From Pseudomonas marvdashtae (lineage in GTDB: Bacteria; Pseudomonadota; Gammaproteobacteria; Pseudomonadales; Pseudomonadaceae), in the NCBI RefSeq assembly GCF_014268655.2, contig NZ_JABWQX020000002.1:607128-671127 (forward strand): a DNA stretch of 64,000 nt, written 5' to 3'. Below, piece after piece: positions 25,153 through 45,630 of the stretch (position 1 is its first letter; each line of letters starts with the position of its first letter). The position numbers and the translations under genes were made by a program. The notes below the pieces were generated by a model, which ran no database searches, was not told where the DNA came from, and saw nothing but the letters and a program-made list of their open reading frames with translations.

Positions 25153-27732
25153 TTAGATCCGTGTCTTCAATGTATAGAGTAAATCCAGTGCCCGACGCGG
25201 GGTCATGTCATCAAGGTCAAGCTTGGCCAGTTCATCGAGCACCGGGTGCGGCAGGCTGGCGAACATGTCGCTTTGCTGCGGCACGGCTGGTTTGCCTTTG
25301 GTTGGTCGAGGTACTTCGTGCGGCAGGCTGGTGGTTTCCAGGCGACTCAGGTGCTCGCGGGCACGTGTAATGACGTCGCTTGGTACGCCGGCCAGCTGCG
25401 CTACTGCCAAACCGTAGCTCTGGCTGGCCGGGCCCGGCAGTACGTGGTGCAGGAACACGATGCGTTCGTTGTGCTCGGTGGCGTTGAGGTGGACGTTGGC
25501 CACCAGCGGCTGGCTCTCCGGCAACACCGTCAGTTCGAAATAATGCGTGGCGAACAACGTGTAGGCCCGCAACTGGGCCAGGCGTTCGGCCGCCGCCCAC
25601 GCCAGGGACAGGCCGTCGAACGTGCTGGTGCCACGGCCGACTTCGTCCATCAGCACCAAACTGCGCTCGGTGGCGTTGTGCAAGATGTTCGCGGTTTCGC
25701 TCATTTCCACCATGAAGGTCGAACGCCCGCCGGCCAAGTCGTCGCTGGAGCCGATCCGGGTGAAGATGCGGTCCACCAGGGACAGTTCGCAGCTCGCCGC
25801 CGGCACGAAACTGCCGATATGTGCCAGCAGCACGATCAGCGCGGTCTGGCGCATGTAGGTCGATTTACCGCCCATGTTCGGACCGGTGATCACCAGCATG
25901 CGGGTGTTGTCGTCCAGGCTCAGGTCGTTGGCCACGAACGGCGTGGTTAACACCTGCTCGACGACCGGGTGACGTCCCTGGCTGATGCGCATGCACGGCT
26001 CGCTGACGAAGCGCGGGCAGTTGAGGTCCAGGTTCAGTGCGCGCTCGGCCAGGTTGCTCAAGACGTCCAGCTCCGCCAGTGCGCCGGCGGTGTCCTGCAA
26101 CGGTGGGAGCTGGCTGATCAGGTCTTCGAGCAACGCTTCGTAGAGCATCTTCTCGCGGGCAAGGGCGCGACTCTTGGCCGACAGCGCCTTGTCTTCGAAG
26201 GCCTTGAGTTCCGGGGTGATGAAACGCTCGGCGCCCTTGAGGGTCTGGCGGCGAATGTAGTCGGCTGGGGCTTGCTCGGCCTGCTTGCTCGGCAGTTCGA
26301 TGAAATAACCGTGGATGCGGTTGTAGCCGACCTTGAGGTTGGCGAGGCCCGTTCGGGCCTTTTCCCGAGCTTCGAGGTCGATCAGGAACTGGCCGGCGTT
26401 TTCGCTCAACGATTGCAGCTCGTCGAGTTCGGCGTCGTAGCCGGTTTTCAGCACGCCACCGTCGCGGATCACCGCCGGCGGGTTGTCGATAATGGCTTTT
26501 TCCAGCAGTGCGGCCAGGTCCGGGTAGGTGCTGGTGGTGCGCGCCAGTTGTTGCAGGTGCGGCGCTTCGAGGTCAGTCATTGCCACCTGAAGTTCGGGCA
26601 ATGCGCCGAGGGCATCGCGCAAGCGCGCCAAATCGCGGGGCCGGGCGTTGCGCAAGCCGATACGGGCGAGGATCCGCTCGATGTCGCCGATTTCCTTGAG
26701 CTGCGGTTGCAACTGCTCGAAACGATAGCGGTCGAGCAGGCAGGTGATGGAGGTCTGGCGCGCCAGCAAAACGGTCAGGTCCCGCAGCGGACGGTTCAGC
26801 CAGCGGGTCAGCAGGCGGCTGCCCATGGCGGTCTGGCAGCGGTCGACCACCGATTGCAGGGTGTTGTCGCGCCCGCCGGCCAGGTTGGTGTCCAGCTCCA
26901 GGTTGCGTCGGCTCGCGCCGTCCAGCACCACCGTGTCATCCAGGCGTTCGTGACGCAGGCTGCGCAAATGGGGCAGGGCGGTACGCTGGGTTTCCTTGGC
27001 GTAAGCCAGCAGGCAACCGGCGGCGCCAATGGCCAAGGTCAGGTTCTCGCAACCAAAGCCCTTGAGGTCTTGTGTGGAGAATTGCTGGCAGAGACTTTTC
27101 AACGCTGAGTCACGCTCAAAATCCCACGGCGCCCGACGACGTACGCCACGGCGTTTTTCCGCCGGCAGGTCTTTGGGCCAATCATCGGGAATCAACAGTT
27201 CCACCGGGTTGACCCGCTCCAGCTCCGCCAGGAGGTTTTCCCAGCCCTTGATTTCCAGCACCGAGAAATTGCCGCTGGTGATGTCCAGCACCGCCAGGCC
27301 GAACAGGCGCTCATCGCCCAACACCGCAGCGATCAGGTTGTCCCGGCGTTCATCCAGCAAGGCTTCGTCACTGACCGTGCCCGGGGTGATGATCCGCACG
27401 ACCTGGCGGTCAACAGGGCCTTTGCTGGTGGCCGGGTCGCCGACTTGCTCGCAGATCACCACGGATTCGCCTAGCTTGACCAGCTTCGCCAGATAACCTT
27501 CCGCCGCGTGGTAAGGAATCCCACACATCGGAATCGCCATGCCCGCCGATTGCCCACGCGCCGTCAGGGTGATGTCCAACAGCTTGGCGGCTTTCTTCGC
27601 GTCCTCGTAGAAGATCTCGTAGAAATCGCCCATGCGGTAGAACATCAGCTGGTCGGGGTGCTGGTTCTTCAGGCGCCAGTACTGTTGCATCATCGGCGTG
27701 TGAGAGGACAGGTCGTTCACGGCGGTATTCAT
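25153..27732 (-). CDS. mutS: DNA mismatch repair protein MutS
   Basis: An 859-residue MutS. The mismatch-binding domain I begins [18 protein letters not shown] with the Phe-x-Glu region [12 protein letters not shown]. Connector, lever and clamp domains follow. The ATPase has Walker [18 protein letters not shown] near residue 620 and Walker [17 protein letters not shown] near 700. I start at the ATG giving [15 protein letters not shown]; sixteen upstream in-frame codons are not family-like. mutS is the left border of the accessory/tailocin region. Confidence 0.97.
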
Positions 27733-27934
27733 GGGTATCAGGGAAGCTCGTTGAAAGGTGTAGGGCAAAAGGAGGGGCATTGGCCCGGCTTTTCCGCGAT
27801 GGGTGCAAGGTTAACATGGGGGGTGGGGGGCGACCCAGGGATGAGTGCTTCGATAAGGTTAGTGAAACTGGGCTTTTGTCCTCCAAATTTGCCCTACATG
27901 TGGCGAAAAAATATCTGTGAAGCACGAACCAGGC

Positions 27935-30144: not shown

Positions 30145-30931
30145 AGCTGCTTAATCAAAATCATCCGAATCAAAAGGTTATCTCATGAAAAAAGTTACCG
30201 TTGCTTCATTGCTGGGCTTGTTTCTATTTTCTGGCGCATTCGTTAACGCTTGGGCTGAAACCGCCCAATCCTGGAACTTGGCAAAAGATGTGATCTTCGC
30301 AAAAGAGCGTGTTGCGACAGGCTCGCCTTGGGCGTTCATGGAAAACACCTCTGGCGTGAATAATCCCGACAACTACATCCTTCTGCCGTCGTTTACGGCC
30401 GATGTATGTGGCGGAAGGCCTGCGACCTGCTGGCAAGACATTCCGTCCGGGGCTCACGTTACCGTTCACAAGGAAACCTATAACTACAGTGGAAACGGCA
30501 GCTTTACTGTTCCGCCAGGTAATGTGATTTTTCATCCTGGTATGAATAGTCAAACCATCATCCGCTGGACCAGTCCTGTCACCGGCGCCGTCAATATTCT
30601 GGGGCGTATCAACAGTATCCACAGCGCCTGTGGCGATGGTGTTGCATGGTCGCTTAACCAGGGCGGTGCGGTTCTGCAGTCGGGTAGCTTGGCCAAAGGT
30701 GCAGGGGCTGTTTTTTCCCTTAACAATGTATCGGTCACCGCCGCTGCGCCGATTTATTTCGTTCTTGATAAAAAGACTAATTACTCTTGCGACTCCAGCA
30801 CCATCGACATGCTGATAACCAAATAGCATTCATCGGTTCAAGCAAATACCCAACTCCAGATCAAATGTTTCCGATGCGGAACGTTGAATCATGTGAAGGC
30901 CGTTGAGCCTCGAGTGAACGCCAGCGAGCGA
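30053..30931 (+). repeat. 80-bp direct repeats (com tail) flanking a secreted-protein gene
   Basis: The segment 30053-30132 (end of com) and 30852-30931 match at 77 of 80 positions by eye. The 799-base period contains the gap after com and the 213-aa gene. The two genes that follow the copies are paralogues. This is a duplicated cassette or the product of recombination between com tails. Confidence 0.9.
30185..30826 (+). CDS. Secreted protein of unknown function, paralogue 1
   Basis: A 213-residue protein with a Sec signal peptide (MKKVTVASLLGLFLFSGAFV, cleavage after NAWA near residue 24). The mature part has conserved cysteine groups (VCGGRPATCW, HSACGDG, YSCDSS), many aromatic and Gly residues, and the block IIRWTSPVTGAVNILGRI, which suggests a beta-sandwich like those of carbohydrate-binding modules; this is inference. 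It sits inside the tailocin transcript between com and the holin. The paralogue at 30990 shares the cysteines and ends in the same SxDMLIT motif. I know no tailocin function for it. Confidence 0.8.
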   Translation: MKKVTVASLLGLFLFSGAFVNAWAETAQSWNLAKDVIFAKERVATGSPWAFMENTSGVNNPDNYILLPSFTADVCGGRPATCWQDIPSGAHVTVHKETYNYSGNGSFTVPPGNVIFHPGMNSQTIIRWTSPVTGAVNILGRINSIHSACGDGVAWSLNQGGAVLQSGSLAKGAGAVFSLNNVSVTAAAPIYFVLDKKTNYSCDSSTIDMLITK

Positions 30932-30970
30932 ACCGTGTGCGGGATAAACCCTGCACGCCTTACTCAATGA
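30852..30970 (+). pseudogene. Truncated second copy of com
   Basis: The frame reads QLQIKCFRCGTLNHVKAVEP, the C-terminal half of Com with only one of the two Cys pairs, then runs on to a TGA at 30968. No start codon or first Cys pair is present. It happens to be in the same frame as the preceding gene, just after its TAG. It is a remnant, not a working gene. Confidence 0.85.
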
Positions 30971-30989
30971 CATCCATCGAGGCAAGAAT

Positions 30990-31634
30990 ATGAAACTCCT
31001 GCAAAAAATCCTGCTGGCGACGGCGTTTCTGTCGTCCTTCGTATCCCTGAGTGCCAAGGCTGATACGGCCCTGTCGTGGAACCTGGCCCGGGACATGTAC
31101 CTGATGACCGAGGCCGCTCCGGCCAGCTCACCCTGGTCGTTCATGCAAAACAAATCGGGGGTGAATGCCTCGGCCAACTACACGCTCTTTCCGTCGTTCC
31201 AGGCCGGGGTCTGTAATGGCAAGCCCACTACCTGCTGGCGCGACGATGCGACGGGCGCTTGGATCTCCATTCCAAATGAAAGCTTCACCTTCACCGGCTC
31301 GGGCACCAGTTTCGTGTTCAAGCAGGGCGATGTAGCCACGCATCCCGGTACCAACAGCCAGAGCATTTTCCGCTGGGCCAGTCCTGTCACCGGCAATATC
31401 AACGTGCTGGGGCGGGTCAATGACCTGCATAACGCTTGCGGGGATGGTGTTGGCTGGTCGCTCAACCTGGGTGACACGGTGCTCCAGTCCGGGAGCCTGG
31501 CAAACGGCGGTAGCGCCACGTTCATGCTGAATAGCGTCGCAGTCACGCCGACGTCTTCGCTTTATCTGGTCATCGACAGGAAAGCCAACAACTCTTGCGA
31601 CGCGACCAGTCTCGACATGCTCATCACTCGATAG
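30990..31634 (+). CDS. Secreted protein of unknown function, paralogue 2
   Basis: A 214-residue paralogue of the gene at 30185, with a signal peptide ending SLSAKA near residue 24, a mature start DTALSWNLARDM, the cysteine groups VCNGKPTTCW, HNACGDG and NSCDAT, and the end SLDMLITR. By eye under half of positions are identical to paralogue 1, so the duplication is old or the copies come from different sources. It lies 47 bases before the holin. A periplasmic or secreted location is expected; function is unknown. Confidence 0.8.
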   Translation: MKLLQKILLATAFLSSFVSLSAKADTALSWNLARDMYLMTEAAPASSPWSFMQNKSGVNASANYTLFPSFQAGVCNGKPTTCWRDDATGAWISIPNESFTFTGSGTSFVFKQGDVATHPGTNSQSIFRWASPVTGNINVLGRVNDLHNACGDGVGWSLNLGDTVLQSGSLANGGSATFMLNSVAVTPTSSLYLVIDRKANNSCDATSLDMLITR

Positions 31635-34531: not shown

Positions 34532-35172
34532 ATGACGATCAACCTCGCTTGAGCCTGTTGCCGGTGAACAGTTCGCCGCTGGAAAGAGCGCTGGACCTGG
34601 GCTTCGCCCGGTTGCTCGAGCGCATTGATCCGCCGTTTCCCGAGTTGATGAATCCGCTGGGAACGCCTTTGGGGTTCCTGCCGTATTTGGCGGCGGATCG
34701 TGGGGTCGGTGAGTGGGACGCGGAAGCCAGCGACCTGGAAAAGCGTCTGACTATTTCATTGTCCTGGCAAATCCAGCGCCAGGCCGGTACTCGCCAAGCG
34801 CTGAATCATGCCGTCGAGTCTATGGGATTCGTGCCGCATGTCACCGCCTGGTATGAGCAACAACCTAGTGCTCACCCCTACACATTTGATGTGCACGCGG
34901 TCATCGGTCGGAGTTGGTCCAGCGGCGATCATAATCGCTTGATACGGCGAATCAATGCCGCCAAGAGCGAGCGCGACCAGGCCACTATCACGCTCGTACA
35001 TCAAACGAGGGGCAGTCTGGCGCTTGCGTCAGCCTCCCATGGAGCATTGAGCGAAGCAGAACTGTTTCTGTGCGGGGCGCTGCCATCACTTGATTTTGAT
35101 GCACGGCTTATCAGCACCGGCTTTTTCCAACCCTACACCATTAACGATTACGACCTCAGGGCGCAGCCATGA
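34528..35172 (+). CDS. Tail protein I
   Basis: A 214-residue P2 gpI family protein, connecting baseplate wedge and fibre. The N-terminal signature SPLERALDLGFARLLERI and the segment LGFLPYLAADRGVGEWDA are characteristic. It starts at the ATG overlapping the J stop (MNDDQPRLSLLPV); the longer frame to 34366 is a shadow within J. The stop overlaps the fibre-base gene. Confidence 0.93.
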   Translation: MNDDQPRLSLLPVNSSPLERALDLGFARLLERIDPPFPELMNPLGTPLGFLPYLAADRGVGEWDAEASDLEKRLTISLSWQIQRQAGTRQALNHAVESMGFVPHVTAWYEQQPSAHPYTFDVHAVIGRSWSSGDHNRLIRRINAAKSERDQATITLVHQTRGSLALASASHGALSEAELFLCGALPSLDFDARLISTGFFQPYTINDYDLRAQP

Positions 35173-35699
35173 CAGAAGACATTACGCGCTTGGTTCGCTT
35201 CACTTCCGCCGGCCTGGCCGAAGTGTTAAAGGCGAAAAACCAAGGCTTGAAAGGTGAGATCACCCACATCGGGGCCGGCACCGCCCGCTACGATCCCAAC
35301 GGATCGGAAACGGCGCTTCGCAATGAACGACAGCGTGTGCCAATCGTGGATTACGAAGATCTGGATCCAGGGCAGCTGAGAATGGCAGCTTTGTTTGAGG
35401 GGCCGGATGAATATGAGATTGGCGAGTTCGGTTTCTATCTTTCTACCGGCACGTTGTTAGCGGTGTATTCGGTAGCTGGAAAGTTGCTGACCTACAAAGC
35501 GGCGGCCGCGCGAGTATTGCAAAAGTTCACGCTGGATATTTCACCGTTGCCGGCGCAAAGCGTCACGGTGGTGGTCGGGTCCGACAACCTGAATATTCTG
35601 TTGAGTGAAGAAATCGCCACGTTGGCTACCGCCAATATCGACAACATGGTGCGGCACGTTGGCCTGATGTTTCGAGTAATGGCGCTCGAAGCTAAATAA
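35169..35699 (+). CDS. Tail-fibre base (collar-domain) protein, short
   Basis: A 176-residue protein that is almost entirely an N-terminal tail-collar domain: FTSAGLAEVLKAKNQGLKGE, then THIGAGTARYDP and EIGEFGFYLSTGTLLAVYS. In most R-tailocins this domain starts a fibre of 500-700 residues; here it stops after the attachment part and ends in a short helix. It lies immediately after gene I, the H (fibre) position. The receptor-binding part may be the next gene. Confidence 0.85.
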   Translation: MTEDITRLVRFTSAGLAEVLKAKNQGLKGEITHIGAGTARYDPNGSETALRNERQRVPIVDYEDLDPGQLRMAALFEGPDEYEIGEFGFYLSTGTLLAVYSVAGKLLTYKAAAARVLQKFTLDISPLPAQSVTVVVGSDNLNILLSEEIATLATANIDNMVRHVGLMFRVMALEAK

Positions 35700-35723: not shown

Positions 35724-36344
35724 GTGAGTCTGGAAACCACTATCGCGTCGCTGGTATCAGCGGCCAATAACTTGACCTCTGTGGTCAATGGAAAAATCGG
35801 CAGTATCAACACGACCATGGCCACGGCTTTGACACAGTTCAATGAGTGGCGAAGCCTGAAGGATGTAGAAGGGGATCCAACTGCCCTGGGCACGATTCGA
35901 CGCAACGTCTTGCAGGGGCATGTTCACGGGACAGGCGGCGTCTATGGTGCAACGGCACAAGGTGATTTTGTTTCCACCAACCTGGGTGCCAGCGCAAATG
36001 TATACATGCATTTCAAAGTACCGCTTAACATCAATACCAATTCGGAGATGTTCTGGTTCAATATCAAGGGCTACAGTTACGGCACAGCCAAAATAATCGA
36101 CGAAACGTTGGTGGGGTATTGCTACCAGCCCACTCGGGTCCTGCAAAACGCTTCGACTTTTGGAAACATGACCCCTTCTATCTATGTCGATACAAACGGA
36201 AATATTGTCATGCGAATTCTGATTCCAAACATTTATTACACCACCGTGCGCATTGACACCATGCGTGTGGGCAATGGTCGGTTGTTCAACCTTGGGGATT
36301 TGGTCACCAGGTTGTCGCTGGCCGAAACCGTCGTTTTCAGCTAA
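35724..36344 (+). CDS. Putative receptor-binding fibre tip
   Basis: A 206-residue protein starting at GTG (35724) after AAGGAACC; the overlapping ATG at 35722 is followed at once by TGA. The N-terminal 50 residues (MSLETTIASLVSAANNLTSV) predict a trimeric helix. The rest is beta-rich (ANVYMHFKVPLNINTNSEMF, GNIVMRILIPNIYYTTVRI). Base composition is more AT-rich than the neighbours, as is common for specificity genes under exchange. It probably forms the killing-spectrum determinant together with the base protein; this is inference from place and fold pattern. Confidence 0.7.
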   Translation: MSLETTIASLVSAANNLTSVVNGKIGSINTTMATALTQFNEWRSLKDVEGDPTALGTIRRNVLQGHVHGTGGVYGATAQGDFVSTNLGASANVYMHFKVPLNINTNSEMFWFNIKGYSYGTAKIIDETLVGYCYQPTRVLQNASTFGNMTPSIYVDTNGNIVMRILIPNIYYTTVRIDTMRVGNGRLFNLGDLVTRLSLAETVVFS

Positions 36345-36353
36345 GGAACGAAC

Positions 36354-36611
36354 ATGTCTGATCTTTCCAACAATGACACACCCGAAATTCCCCTGGCCGT
36401 ACCGTCGCCTGAAATCGAATGGGCTGCCATTCGCACGCGTCGTAATCAACTTCTGCGAGACACGGATTTTACCCAACTACCGGACTTCCCGGCGACAGAA
36501 GCCCAACTCGCCGAGATCAAGGCTTACCGCCAGGCCTTGCGAGACATCCCAGAAGCGGATGAGGAACCGTCCAGGCTGCGCTGGCCCGTGCTGCCAGATT
36601 TCATCAAGTAA
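36354..36611 (+). CDS. Tail fibre assembly chaperone
   Basis: An 85-residue protein with the motif WAAIRTRRNQLLRDTDFTQL followed by YRQALRDIPE and a terminal WP, the C-terminal domain of phage tail-fibre assembly chaperones. It is shorter than the 150-200 residues often seen, matching the reduced fibre. RBS AAGGAACG. Terminator-like hairpins follow. Confidence 0.85.
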   Translation: MSDLSNNDTPEIPLAVPSPEIEWAAIRTRRNQLLRDTDFTQLPDFPATEAQLAEIKAYRQALRDIPEADEEPSRLRWPVLPDFIK

Positions 36612-36926: not shown

Positions 36927-38093
36927 ATGGCTGAGGTTTTGAACTTCGAGCACAACGGCATCACCGTCAACGCTACTGAGTCCCCTGAGGCCATGGGTGG
37001 CCTGGGCGATAACGTCATCGGTCTGGTCGGCACCGCACCGAACGCCAACGCGCTGATCCCGAAAAACACCCCGTTTCGCATCAACAGCTTTACCACCCAG
37101 GCCCAGTTGGACCCGACCGGTGCCGAGGCGGGGACGTTGTTCCACGCGGTGTACCAGATTCTCAAAGTGGTCAAGGTGCCGGTCTACGTGGTCATCGTCG
37201 AGGAGGGCGCGACGCTGGCCGATACGCAGAACAATGTGATCGGCGGTATCGAGGCGCAGACCGGGCGCAAGTTGGGGATGGCGGCGTTGAGTGGGGTCGC
37301 CGAAGACCTGACCATCATCGGCGCGCCGGGCTTCACCGGCACCAAGGCGGTGGCGAGCGAGTTCGCTTCGTTTGGCAAGCGCATCAAGGCCCGTGTGGTG
37401 CTCGACGGCAAGGACGTCTCGGTCGCCGATCAAGTGACTTACAGCCAGGAACTGGGCGGCGCCGACCTCGGTTTTGACCGTTGCCTGGTGGTGCACAACA
37501 TGCCGGCGGTGTATTCCAAGGCGGCGAAGAAAAACGTTTTCCTGGCGCCGTCGAGCCTGGCCATCGCTGCCCTCGCCAAGGTCAAGCAGTGGGAGAGCCC
37601 GGGCAACCAGGTGACCTACGCCGAAGACGTTTCCCGCACCGTCGAATACAACATCCTCGACACCTCAACCGAGGGCGATCTGCTCAACCGCTACGGCGTC
37701 AGCTATTACGCCCGAACCATCCTCGGCGGCTTCTCGCTGTTGGGTAACCGCTCCATCACCGGCAAGTTCATCAGCTACGTCGGCCTGGAAGATGCCATCA
37801 GCCGCAAGCTGGTGAAGGCCGGCCAGAAAGCCATGGCCAAGAATCTGACCAAGTCGTTCATGGACCAGGAGGTCAAGCGCATCAACGACTGGCTGCAAAC
37901 CCTGGTCGCCGACGAAACCATTCCTGGCGGCAGCGTTTACCTGCACCCGGAATTGAACAGCGTCGAGAAGTACAAGAACGGCACCTGGTATGTGGTCATC
38001 GACTACGGCCGCTACGCGCCAAACGAACACATGATTTATCAACTCAATGCCCGCGATGAAATCATCGAGCAGTTCCTGGAGGACGTTCTCTAA
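36927..38093 (+). CDS. Contractile tail sheath protein (FI)
   Basis: A 388-residue P2 FI-type sheath. It has an N-terminal segment FEHNGITVNATESPEAMGGL, the middle domain (NAGTLF-like region: TGAEAGTLFHAVYQILK), and the conserved C-terminal polymerisation domain NDWLQTLVADETIPGGSVYL near 310-330 and IDYGRYAPNEHMIYQLN. Sheath contraction drives the tube through the target envelope. It overlaps the tube gene by one base. Confidence 0.96.
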   Translation: MAEVLNFEHNGITVNATESPEAMGGLGDNVIGLVGTAPNANALIPKNTPFRINSFTTQAQLDPTGAEAGTLFHAVYQILKVVKVPVYVVIVEEGATLADTQNNVIGGIEAQTGRKLGMAALSGVAEDLTIIGAPGFTGTKAVASEFASFGKRIKARVVLDGKDVSVADQVTYSQELGGADLGFDRCLVVHNMPAVYSKAAKKNVFLAPSSLAIAALAKVKQWESPGNQVTYAEDVSRTVEYNILDTSTEGDLLNRYGVSYYARTILGGFSLLGNRSITGKFISYVGLEDAISRKLVKAGQKAMAKNLTKSFMDQEVKRINDWLQTLVADETIPGGSVYLHPELNSVEKYKNGTWYVVIDYGRYAPNEHMIYQLNARDEIIEQFLEDVL

Positions 38094-42028: not shown

Positions 42029-43045
42029 ATGTCATTGGGTTTTACACCTGCGGTAGAAATTTATGGCGCGAACGCCGCGCTGCTCAACCAGCGATTGCTC
42101 AGTTGGACGCACATCGATGCGGCGGGTATCGAGTCCGATCAACTGACGCTCACGCTCAGCCTGGAAGGGCTCGAGGGACTGCCCAGCCTTGAGGGGAAAA
42201 TCGGCTTGCGGGTCGGTTACCAAGAGTCCGGGCTCGTGGATAAAGGTGAGTTCGTCGTGACCCGGCGCACACCGACATTGTTTCCCCTGCGCCTGACATT
42301 GGTGGCGACGGCGGCGCCGTTCAGCGCGTCGGACCAGACCGGTTTCAAGCAGCGCCGATCTGTCAGTCACGGCCCGACGACTCTGGGGACGTTGTTTCGT
42401 CAATTGACCTCGAGGCACGGATTTTCCCCTCGCGTCGCCCCCGAGTTGTCGCTGATCAAGATCGAGCACATCGACCAGTCCAACGAAACCGACATGGGAT
42501 TCCTGACTCGGCTGGCCCATCGTTACGACGCGGTCGCCAAGCCGATCAACGAGTTGTATGTGCTGGCACGTCGCGGCCAGGCGAAATCGCTGTCGGGCAA
42601 AATCCTCCCGGACACAAAGCTGTCGGTGACGACGAACAATCGTCCAGGTGACCAAGCCTTTGTCTCTGCGGTTCTTGATGAAGCGGCCCGGGCGAAATAC
42701 CAGGGCTGCAAGACCACTTGGTGGGATGCGGTGGCGGGCAAAGCGCGTGTCGAAGAAAGCGGTATCGCGCCATTCAAGACGCTGCGTCAGCGCTTCCAAA
42801 GCGCAGACGATGCCCGCGCCGCCGCTGAAGGGGAGGTACGCCGGATGATGCGCGAAGCGCTCAAGGTCACCATTGAATGCCCTGGCAATCCGGCGTTATC
42901 CGCAGAAGGCATCGTGCTGCTTGACCCAACCTGGCCGGATTTCATGCGCGGCCGCTGGTCGATCGACAAGGTCACCGCCAGCGGCGACCGGGAAAAAAGC
43001 TACCGCTGCAAGATCGAGGCGACTTGTCTGGATGCGAGGGGCTGA
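42029..43045 (+). CDS. Late control protein D (baseplate hub)
   Basis: A 338-residue P2 gpD/T4 gp27-like hub protein on which the V spike sits. Family blocks include WTHIDAAGIESDQLTLTLSL near 25, HIDQSNETDMGFLTRLAHRY near 155 and the C-terminal RGRWSIDKVTASGD. RBS AAGGAGGCGAC. It is the last gene of the plus-strand structural series before the inverted gene. Confidence 0.94.
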   Translation: MSLGFTPAVEIYGANAALLNQRLLSWTHIDAAGIESDQLTLTLSLEGLEGLPSLEGKIGLRVGYQESGLVDKGEFVVTRRTPTLFPLRLTLVATAAPFSASDQTGFKQRRSVSHGPTTLGTLFRQLTSRHGFSPRVAPELSLIKIEHIDQSNETDMGFLTRLAHRYDAVAKPINELYVLARRGQAKSLSGKILPDTKLSVTTNNRPGDQAFVSAVLDEAARAKYQGCKTTWWDAVAGKARVEESGIAPFKTLRQRFQSADDARAAAEGEVRRMMREALKVTIECPGNPALSAEGIVLLDPTWPDFMRGRWSIDKVTASGDREKSYRCKIEATCLDARG

Positions 43046-43127
43046 CATTTGTTACCAGTGCACGTCGATCCAGCTAAAACGAACTGCTCGCGGTGTCTGG
43101 AGTAATCAAGTGCCGGCTTGGCGGCGT

Positions 43128-43937
43128 TCACCTATTAAGCATCCGTCGCGCGTCATCAAGGCTGATCTTCTCAATAATATGTCCCGGAACCTTGGAATCC
43201 GCGGACAAGTTATAGACCTGAAAGTCGTCGCTGACGATGTGCTCGGACATCAGTTTCAAGGAAGGCAGAATCCGGGTGCCGTAATGCTGGTCCAGTCCGC
43301 AAGGCGAGCGTTTGCTTTCCGATGTTTCATAGAATCGGCCAGCCGCCTGATTCAAGTCGAAGCCGACTAGGAAAACCTTGTTGAAACCCAGATGGTAGGC
43401 AGTTTGTAGGGCGAGATACATGACCGTTCGAGCATCGAAGCAGCCAAGGGACATGTCTTTGCTGAAGCCAATGTCCTTGCTTCGCTTGCTCAAGAGAAAA
43501 CTGTCCCTGACAAGCGATTCCTGCGGGTTGAATAACGTTGTAAACATTGAGGCCCTGGGGGCCTTTTTCAAGCCGAAGGCGTTCCCGTTGGGCTTGGTTT
43601 GGACGATGTCGAACTGTTCCTCCCACAACGCAACGTTTTCACTGATTTGCATTGCGGTTGCGAAGAGTTCCGGCTGTTGAAGCGGGAAGTTGGTATCCGA
43701 GCATATGTAGAAAAAGGGCTTGGTGCCGGCTTGGCTGAACATGGATATAGCGCCGTTCATGGTAATCATCGGCACGGTTGAAAACTCTTCTATCGGGAAG
43801 CCTCTCGCCGAGTTGCCTGAGGCGATGATAAAAACCGGGCCACTTTTTATGTTCTTGCATTCACTGAAACTGGTCTGTTTAAAAGATGCAGCTGTTTCTG
43901 CGATGAGCGCTTTGCCCAGATTTTTCGCCCTGCTCAT
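43128..43937 (-). CDS. LPS-core-type sugar transferase-like protein, antisense in the tailocin
   Basis: A 269-residue protein inside the tailocin but on the opposite strand. The N-terminal nucleotide-binding motif VFIIASGNSARGFPIEEF and the later block TVMYLALQTAYHLGFNKVFL with GFDLN resemble WaaZ/RfaZ-type LPS core proteins, DUF115 proteins and GT42 sialyltransferases, which share a GNGPS-like start. There is no signal peptide or membrane helix. Composition is visibly more AT-rich than the neighbours, suggesting separate acquisition. R-tailocins bind LPS, so modification of the producer's own LPS is an attractive role, but this is inference. The exact family is uncertain. Confidence 0.6.
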   Translation of the reverse strand: MSRAKNLGKALIAETAASFKQTSFSECKNIKSGPVFIIASGNSARGFPIEEFSTVPMITMNGAISMFSQAGTKPFFYICSDTNFPLQQPELFATAMQISENVALWEEQFDIVQTKPNGNAFGLKKAPRASMFTTLFNPQESLVRDSFLLSKRSKDIGFSKDMSLGCFDARTVMYLALQTAYHLGFNKVFLVGFDLNQAAGRFYETSESKRSPCGLDQHYGTRILPSLKLMSEHIVSDDFQVYNLSADSKVPGHIIEKISLDDARRMLNR

Positions 43938-44000
43938 GTACGTCCCATTTTGTTATTCAAATGATCGACGATGCCCTTCAACCTCGTTAAGGAAATCGCC

Positions 44001-44546
44001 ATGCCCATCACGCAAGCCCAACTGCTGCGTATTCTTCCAAACGCCGGCGCCAGTGCCGGCGTTTTTGCACCTGTCCTGAACATCGCCATGGGCCGTTACC
44101 AGATTATCGGCCTCAAGCGTGTCGCCGCGTTTATCGCCCAGGTCGGCCATGAGTCCGGCCAGCTACGTTATCTACGGGAGCTGGGCAACGATGTTTATTT
44201 ATCAAAGTATGACACCGGTCGGCTGGCTTCGTGCCTGGGTAATACGCCTGAAGCGGACGGTGACGGTCAAAGGTACCGGGGGCGTGGGCTGATCCAGATT
44301 ACCGGTCGGGCGAACTACCAGGCTTGCGGTGAGGCGCTGGGCCTTGATCTGGTCGCGGAACCGGCGCTGCTGGAGCAACCCCAGTGGGCCGCGCTTTCGG
44401 CTGCGTGGTTCTGGGCCTCACGGGGGCTTAATCCTCTCGCGGACGCCGGCGATTTCGACGCGATCACCCGGCGAATCAACGGCGGCCAGAACGGCGCCGC
44501 GGACCGCCAGGTTTTATATGGGCGAGCGCTGCGGGTGCTGGAATGA
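44001..44546 (+). CDS. Endolysin, glycoside hydrolase family 19
   Basis: A 181-residue GH19 lytic enzyme. AAFIAQVGHESGQLRYLREL carries the catalytic Glu, and YRGRGLIQITGRANYQACGE is the family signature. It should cut peptidoglycan after the holin opens the membrane and so release the particles. The ATG at 44001 follows AAGGAAATC; ten in-frame upstream codons are dismissed. It overlaps the Rz gene by 4 bases. R-pyocins use the same enzyme class at this place (PA0629 position). Confidence 0.93.
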   Translation: MPITQAQLLRILPNAGASAGVFAPVLNIAMGRYQIIGLKRVAAFIAQVGHESGQLRYLRELGNDVYLSKYDTGRLASCLGNTPEADGDGQRYRGRGLIQITGRANYQACGEALGLDLVAEPALLEQPQWAALSAAWFWASRGLNPLADAGDFDAITRRINGGQNGAADRQVLYGRALRVLE

Positions 44547-45058
44547 ACCCGGCCCTGCTGAGGTTTCTGCCTCTCACCGCCGTGGTTTTTTTGCTGCTGA
44601 CGACCAGCGTGGCCTGGAAAATCCAGGACTGGCGTTACGGCAAGACGTTGGCCGAGCTGGCCAATTCCCACGCTGAAACCCTGAGAAAGATGAGCGTTGC
44701 AGCGGCCGCTTCGCAGCAAAGAGAAACAGAAAGACGCCTCGCCCTCGAACAGCAACTTTCCGCCAGCGAGCAAATCCACTACCGAGCCTTGAGCGATGCC
44801 CAACGTGACCAGGATCGCTTGCGCGATCGCCTTGCTACTGCCGATGTCCGGCTGTCAGTCCTCCTCGACGCCGACGATGTTGCCGCCGGCTGTGCAGTGC
44901 CTGCCGCCCCCGGCGCCAGCGGCATGGATCATGGTGCCCCACGCGCCCGACTTGACCCGGCGCATGCTCAACGAATTATCGCCATCACCGACGCGGGTGA
45001 CCGTGGACTGATTGCGCTGCAGGCTTGCCAGGCTTACGTCAGTGCGCTGGGCCGGTGA
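44543..45058 (+). CDS. Rz-like inner-membrane spanin
   Basis: A 171-residue protein with one N-terminal membrane helix (RFLPLTAVVFLLLTTSVAW) and a periplasmic coiled coil rich in Ala, Glu, Gln and Arg (about 30-100), the Rz/i-spanin layout. It pairs with the lipoprotein encoded inside it to fuse inner and outer membranes in the last step of lysis. It begins in the endolysin stop (ATGA). Confidence 0.87.
   Translation: MNPALLRFLPLTAVVFLLLTTSVAWKIQDWRYGKTLAELANSHAETLRKMSVAAAASQQRETERRLALEQQLSASEQIHYRALSDAQRDQDRLRDRLATADVRLSVLLDADDVAAGCAVPAAPGASGMDHGAPRARLDPAHAQRIIAITDAGDRGLIALQACQAYVSALGR
44796..45011 (+). CDS. Rz1-like outer-membrane spanin, embedded in Rz
   Basis: A 71-residue lipoprotein in the +1 frame, wholly inside the Rz gene. 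MPNVTRIACAIALLLPMSGC is a type II signal with lipobox PMSGC, followed by a Pro-rich stretch (CLPPPAPAAW), both hallmarks of Rz1. A fully nested o-spanin is known from lambda. It follows the ATG at 44796. Confidence 0.87.
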   Translation: MPNVTRIACAIALLLPMSGCQSSSTPTMLPPAVQCLPPPAPAAWIMVPHAPDLTRRMLNELSPSPTRVTVD

Positions 45059-45129: not shown

Positions 45130-45630
45130 ATGGACGACATTACCGAACTGGCCGCTGAATTGGGCAGGCGCCTGCAGCTGCTCAATGCCCATGTCACCAC
45201 CGCCGAGTCCTGCACCGGTGGTGGGATTGCCGAGGCGATCACTCGGATCCCGGGGAGTTCGGCCTGGTTCGAGGCAGGGTTTGTCACCTATTCCAATCGT
45301 CAGAAAACCCAGCAGTTGGGCGTGCCCGACGGGCTGTTCGAGAAGGTCGGCGCGGTCAGCCGCGAGGTGGTGGAAGCCATGGCGCGGGGTGCCCAGCAGA
45401 AAAGCCTGGCGCGTTTTTCCGTGGCGGTCAGCGGCGTGGCCGGGCCAGACGGGGGCTCGCCGAGCAAGCCGGTGGGCACCGTATGGCTCGCCTGGGGCGT
45501 TGGCGAGGCGCTGTTCAGCGAGCAGCGATTCTTTCCAGGCAACCGCGACGAGGTCCGCCGACAAACGGTGAAGGCCGCCCTAGACGGGCTGTTACAACAT
45601 GCCGCCGCAGAAATCTCAAATCAGGGGTAG
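45130..45630 (+). CDS. pncC: CinA C-terminal family nicotinamide-nucleotide amidase
   Basis: A 166-residue PncC-type amidase, corresponding to the C-terminal domain of CinA, which deamidates NMN in NAD recycling. The active-site block [20 protein letters not shown] lies near residue 22, followed by [20 protein letters not shown] and [20 protein letters not shown]. It lies directly upstream of recA in pseudomonads and marks the right border of the tailocin insertion. Confidence 0.95.

Follow-up and report, generated by a model that had tools for sequence, protein, structure and literature searches.

A WaaZ-like gene inside an R-tailocin cluster of Pseudomonas marvdashtae as a candidate lipopolysaccharide-modifying moron

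Introduction

The closest described counterparts of the gene analyzed here are WaaZ (RfaZ), the KdoIII (Kdo, 3-deoxy-D-manno-oct-2-ulosonic acid) transferase of the enteric lipopolysaccharide (LPS) core, the O-antigen- or LPS-modifying morons (lysogenic-conversion cargo) of prophages, and the immunity genes linked to bacteriocins such as S-type pyocins and colicin M-like proteins. The gene (43128..43937, minus strand) is located inside an R-tailocin cluster on a stretch of 64,000 nucleotides from Pseudomonas marvdashtae (contig NZ_JABWQX020000002.1), in the following called the window, and encodes a WaaZ-like putative LPS glycosyltransferase. With WaaZ it shares homology and the invariant SG, NG, D, GxDL, RFY, and NLS columns, but its product is only 24% identical to Salmonella RfaZ, falls short of the score expected for WaaZ, and is encoded outside a waa cluster. 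Like LPS-modifying morons, it is a single gene of low G+C content (GC) with its own orientation and a place between tail and lysis genes (a place beside a repressor-like gene being the alternative), and it has relatives on two viral contigs; unlike them, it belongs to the cluster of a tailocin, where no capsid genes were recognized by eye, and conversion by it is putative. A gene that protected the producer beside a killing gene would be comparable to the linked immunity genes; unlike these, waaZ (as the gene is called below) shows no linkage to the type of fibre.

According to the sections available of one study, no linked immunity genes are known for tailocins (PMC8319346). For the injected effectors of contractile systems, cognate immunity genes are reported in one partly accessible source (PMC12961389) and none were identified according to the accessible part of another (PMC10598620); those parts of both papers do not describe an LPS-modifying gene in R-tailocins. 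In P. syringae, tailocin sensitivity has been tied to O-antigen loci, as stated in an excerpt of PMC12608077. Among the best-ranked matches in the open-licence literature, as far as their accessible text goes, none was found to describe a tailocin cluster that contains a gene for an LPS glycosyltransferase. We favor, with a probability of roughly 0.55, the interpretation that waaZ is a moron in a P2-like prophage turned R-tailocin and that it alters LPS, mainly excluding phages and foreign tailocins.

Results and discussion

The tailocin-borne gene encodes a probable LPS glycosyltransferase distantly related to WaaZ

The open reading frame (ORF) starts with ATG at 43937, ends at 43128 on the minus strand, and comprises 269 codons (269 aa); it is the single copy of its kind in its own genome. 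The initial annotation had placed it on the antisense strand inside the tailocin, with exactly these limits, and its description of the gene as AT-rich also holds, as GC is 0.507 (50.7%) compared with 0.600 for the window and 0.511 for the 1-kb bin 43001-44000. A protein search yielded 350 homologues at E<=1e-3, the best 120 of which were listed; those of them that bear a name in their source are usually called lipopolysaccharide biosynthesis protein, Kdo-III transferase WaaZ, or KDO transferase-3. Ratios of nonsynonymous to synonymous substitution rates (dN/dS) of 0.11-0.16 were obtained among the three intact tailocin copies (window, viral contig L131, and genome G146) and of 0.11-0.26 when the broken copy of viral contig L133 was added; several dS values exceed 1, so that these ratios are rough. 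Purifying selection therefore seems to keep the tailocin copies, and because of the homologues and the low dN/dS the ORF is considered a real gene and a chance antisense ORF can be dismissed.

In comparisons with protein families, the WaaZ equivalog model TIGR04437 matched with E 2e-27 and 96 bits, under its cut-off of 200; five relatives scored 90-107 bits, and Salmonella RfaZ 462 bits. Orthology to WaaZ proper was rejected on the basis of this score, and since it amounts to half of the cut-off, Kdo transfer by the protein is only putative. The sole Pfam family detected in a scan to E 10 was DUF115/MptE-like (PF01973), with 21.4 bits against a gathering threshold of 34.6; Salmonella RfaZ likewise remained below it, with 22.8 bits. 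A match to a sialyltransferase family of PHROG was weak (E 0.005), and no solved structure was matched by sequence up to E 10. The predicted model of the protein has the fold of solved members of DUF115/MptE, of the Maf motility-associated glycosyltransferases, and of the GT42 sialyltransferases (CstI/CstII), at sequence identities of about 12-18% in the structural alignments; a common function or donor would be conjectural. The resemblance to WaaZ, DUF115, and GT42 proteins that had been proposed thus persists as a distant one to WaaZ and as one of fold to DUF115, Maf, and GT42, whereas by sequence the match to DUF115 is below threshold; the modeled fold is glycosyltransferase-like and not an unrelated one. 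Taken together, the protein is probably an LPS glycosyltransferase distantly related to WaaZ, and LPS is the likely target of its modification. Models of anti-phage defence systems (PADLOC) gave no family to E 1, and a known defence gene was ruled out on this ground.

Copies in four tailocins share one slot and, where placed in the tree, one clade

In four tailocins (window, G146, L131, and L133), waaZ occupies the same antisense slot between tail and lysis genes. L131 and L133 come from viral contigs, as does L132. The latter contig (read as L230) carries a portal gene, a DUF3383 gene, and a tail-collar fibre, and its relative of waaZ lies antisense between the tail-collar fibre and a DUF2514 gene, a position like that of the tailocin copies. 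On a further viral contig of 112 kb, detected by a search with the alignment, the stretch L340:4631-6813 contains a relative with 53% identity just downstream of a gene that appeared repressor-like by eye, which is a typical place for lysogenic conversion. The gene thus shows several features of a moron, as relatives are carried on two viral contigs, the particle does not need it (most surveyed tailocins are without it), and its orientation is its own.

A tree of 126 rows was calculated, for which, of the 120 listed homologues, P0001-P0040 (without P0010) were put forward and from which sequences shorter than 200 aa (including L133), identical sequences, and L034, L067, and L068 (no usable ORF) were left out. 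The copies of the window, L131, and G146 fall into a clade of 15 rows (support 100/99) that includes no chromosomal row, the context of each of the other 12 rows being unknown. This clade is nested in one of 47 rows (100/100) together with the L132 copy and copies from what we take, from the species names, to be the P. syringae group. The common clade, slot, and orientation suggest that the tailocin copies were co-inherited and did not arise by repeated accidents.

Alleles of waaZ do not follow the fibre in the four tailocins compared

The initial annotation had also proposed that the gene travels with the fibre genes and had called for a comparison of its alleles with the fibre tip across strains. 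About 7 kb separate it from the fibre. The alleles of the window and L131 are 85% identical across 215 compared aa (dS 0.49; 81% when the full match is taken) and those of G146 and L133 are 88% identical over 174 aa (dS 0.25), while identities across these two groups are 67-71%. The fibre tip, by contrast, is common to the window, G146, and L133 (93-96%), and L131 has an unrelated fibre of 763 aa, so that among these four tailocins one fibre type occurs with two waaZ groups and one waaZ group with two unrelated fibres. In L133 (also L204; IMG/VR 2600254930), waaZ is broken, possibly by a sequencing error, while the fibre and the matched structural genes look intact. The window fibre tip (at least 73% identity) was detected in 13 of 398 sampled genomes, and nine of these are without any WaaZ-like gene, whereas four have one, which is part of the tailocin in two genomes and located elsewhere in the other two. 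These absences and the broken L133 copy indicate that waaZ is not required alongside the window fibre. Co-travel with the fibre is thus contradicted, on few cases, and the claim of a fibre-linked self-resistance is weakened by these sequence comparisons. When 40 tailocins fetched by their baseplate gene were considered, waaZ was found in one of the seven with the tip in the genome (two of which, G319 and G035, carry it on another contig) and in none of the 33 others, numbers too small for a claim.

Relatives outside tailocins

Within the genus, 95 of the 398 sampled genomes (own included) encode a WaaZ-like relative; 30 loci from these genomes were examined with flanks of about 1.5 kb, and two of them, the window's own and that of G146, are in tailocins. 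Relatives were also collected from 68 loci on GTDB contigs. These occupy several chromosomal sites; an L,D-transpeptidase gene is near 24 of the loci and an Omp85 gene near eight, the rest being scattered. A Pfam search with 20 representatives of neighbour families assigned a family to 17, in no case one of LPS biosynthesis, and left three without any; a location of the chromosomal relatives in an LPS cluster was rejected on this basis. Of 100 loci tried, 97 copies could be measured for GC, and 72 of them are at least three points below their own locus; low GC is therefore not peculiar to the tailocin copies. Matches on plasmids were limited to two distant ones from Klebsiella, and those in annotated phages to five records with about 27-28% identity (two Campylobacter phages and three Salmonella records). 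At locus L038, lysis and tail genes of prophage type are found close to the relative.

The slot between hub and endolysin in other tailocins

A first survey of the slot covered the window, L131, L133, and the 40 baseplate-fetched regions. Where waaZ is present (four tailocins), hub and endolysin are 929-1112 bp apart; among the other 39, a window-type endolysin follows next in 15, at a distance of 13-253 bp, whereas the stretch covered beyond the hub showed no match to the window endolysin in 24. For a second survey, the first 100 listed regions upstream of cinA were taken, G019, G172, G227, and G404 being skipped. An endolysin or Rz match was obtained in 86 of them, and both hub and endolysin in 30; the gap measures 11-253 bp in 25 of these and 362-2836 bp in five. 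The wide gap contains waaZ in G146 and plus-strand frames in the other four. Codon-scored gene calling in the 100 regions revealed what we judge to be a credible antisense gene in the slot of two, waaZ of G146 and, in G319, a gene for a SASA acetylesterase (PF03629, E 2.6e-45; L257:1267-2076, antisense in the tailocin and plus in the locus). In a third set of 49 regions, representing 47 tailocins as L228 and L231 duplicate the L131 and L133 contigs, the only credible antisense genes in the clusters were again waaZ (window, G146, L131, and the broken L133 copy) and the SASA gene of G319. In the second and third surveys, we regarded frames on the minus strand as artefacts when they lay opposite a tail or endolysin gene; these include a long high-GC frame in L199 and the frame L322:1-934, which has no Pfam family and overlaps a plus-strand frame.

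An acetylesterase in the same antisense slot hints at a cargo site for surface modification. Counting waaZ and SASA together gives two of the seven tip-bearing genomes and none of the 33 others, a comparison chosen after the data had been seen. The SASA gene has a GC of 0.55 and a start that looks like an export signal by eye; its genome is without a WaaZ-like gene, and the fibre tip that it carries elsewhere is of the window type (86%). In another tailocin (G179), a plus-strand ORF between hub and endolysin (L314:2776-3660) has a sub-threshold B_lectin match and is possibly a lectin-like bacteriocin inside the cluster. The hub-endolysin gap of a further one (G395) contains a low-GC ORF of 325 aa (L335:2526-3503, minus in the locus) with a borderline match to DUF6242.

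Possible roles of waaZ

As we envisage it, a P2-like prophage would have become an R-tailocin and retained its conversion gene. The WaaZ-related enzyme would most likely transfer a Kdo-like sugar, that is, a cytidine monophosphate-activated ulosonic or nonulosonic acid, onto the host LPS core, donor and acceptor both being presumed. As waaZ is antisense to the tail operon, its expression would fall into the uninduced state, and, on presumed timing, tail and lysis transcription would run over it upon the SOS response. The changed LPS would alter the adsorption of LPS-binding phages and tailocins. The clone would most likely benefit by excluding phages and foreign tailocins; the producer may also, though not necessarily, be protected from its own particles. 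Underlying this interpretation are the gene itself, its homology, fold, position, and selection, and its relatives on viral contigs. As a cause of altered tailocin or phage sensitivity, waaZ is a good candidate, although an unproven one. With a conserved, probably LPS-modifying gene, tailocin clusters offer a concrete candidate that consists of one gene, and if the interpretation is correct, surface conversion would be a tailocin function inherited from prophages and the prediction of tailocin host range and resistance would be affected.

Several observations weigh against a moron. Besides the low TIGR04437 score and the broken copy of L133, a simple consensus scan of 42900-44300 revealed neither a sigma70-type promoter nor a terminator. 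Any waaZ promoter must lie inside the endolysin gene or in the divergent gap of 63 bp (43938..44000) that separates the ATG of waaZ from the likely start of that gene. None of the 68 GTDB loci matches the tailocin structural genes, and three have an endolysin or Rz match, a test made with window genes only, which misses unrelated tailocins or prophages nearby. Most of the relatives that were examined occur singly and at scattered places on the chromosome, which would also allow a chromosomal origin with later capture by a phage or tailocin. Such a siting, the occurrence in 95 of 398 genomes, the GC-poor copies, and the small number of surveyed tailocins with waaZ would all fit a mobile single-gene Pseudomonas LPS determinant that sits as a passenger in a permissive slot and confers a benefit unrelated to the tailocin, such as phage resistance or an interaction with plants or insects. 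We regard this as possible but rather unlikely, as three tailocin copies belong to a supported clade of 15 rows without chromosomal rows (12 of unknown context) and slot and orientation are identical in four tailocins. If waaZ were instead a dedicated self-resistance factor, as had been suggested originally, the enzyme would mask the LPS feature bound by the producer's own fibre and siblings would survive the burst. The constant position, the purifying selection, and the fibre tip common to three of the four waaZ-bearing tailocins would agree with such a role, as would the function of LPS as tailocin receptor or shield and the increased self-sensitivity of lipid-asymmetry and LPS-transport mutants described in the accessible part of PMC8319346. 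However, this appears quite unlikely in view of the nine tip-bearing genomes without any WaaZ-like gene, the pairing of waaZ with an unrelated fibre in L131, the discordance of alleles and fibres in the four cases, the intact-looking fibre beside the broken copy in L133, and a self-intoxication screen in another strain, in which, by the same partial source, none of nine hits fell into the tailocin cluster (PMC8319346). A wider formulation, in which the antisense slot of mutS-cinA R-tailocins would be a swappable glycan-modifying resistance module (WaaZ-like or SASA) protecting the clone from its own or rival tailocins, seems unlikely to us.

The tailocin locus and its neighbouring genes

The region between mutS and cinA is a tailocin/prophage site of fluorescent Pseudomonas, as reported in the accessible text of PMC2647930. 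In the window, waaZ is flanked on the left by the gene for a baseplate hub or late control D-like protein (42029..43045, plus strand; phrog_52, tail, E 6.6e-95; PF05954 below cut-off), the last tail gene before the slot. On its right follow a GH19 chitinase-type endolysin gene (43971..44546, plus; PF00182, E 1.2e-11), whose true start is likely 44001 as judged from the starts of related endolysins, an Rz-like spanin gene (44543..45058, plus; PF03245, E 1.1e-4; its 22.9 bits are slightly short of the cut-off, 25.4), cinA (45130..45630, plus), which forms the right border of the tailocin locus, and recA. The left border is formed by mutS (25153..27780, minus). The names mutS, cinA, recA, and tail sheath are those that we presume from the appearance of the sequences. 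As its neighbours are tail and lysis genes, waaZ does not belong to a cluster for LPS biosynthesis.

The tail sheath gene (36927..38093, plus) is 98-99% identical across the four waaZ-bearing tailocins. Upstream of it are a presumed fibre N-terminal or collar-type gene (35169..35699, plus), assigned by position and with matches of 80-98% in 7 of 42 other tailocin regions, the short fibre tip gene fibA (35724..36344, plus; 206 aa), and a tail assembly chaperone gene (36354..36611, plus; PF16778, E 7e-19). The identity of FibA as a fibre is suggested mainly by its place before the chaperone, as PHROG families without a known function match it best (E 7.5e-8) and a tail-fibre family appears only at E 0.098. 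Between a repressor-like gene and the tail genes, two similar ORFs of 213 and 214 aa (30185-31634) have starts that resemble signal peptides by eye, and the first of them lies in a low-GC stretch.
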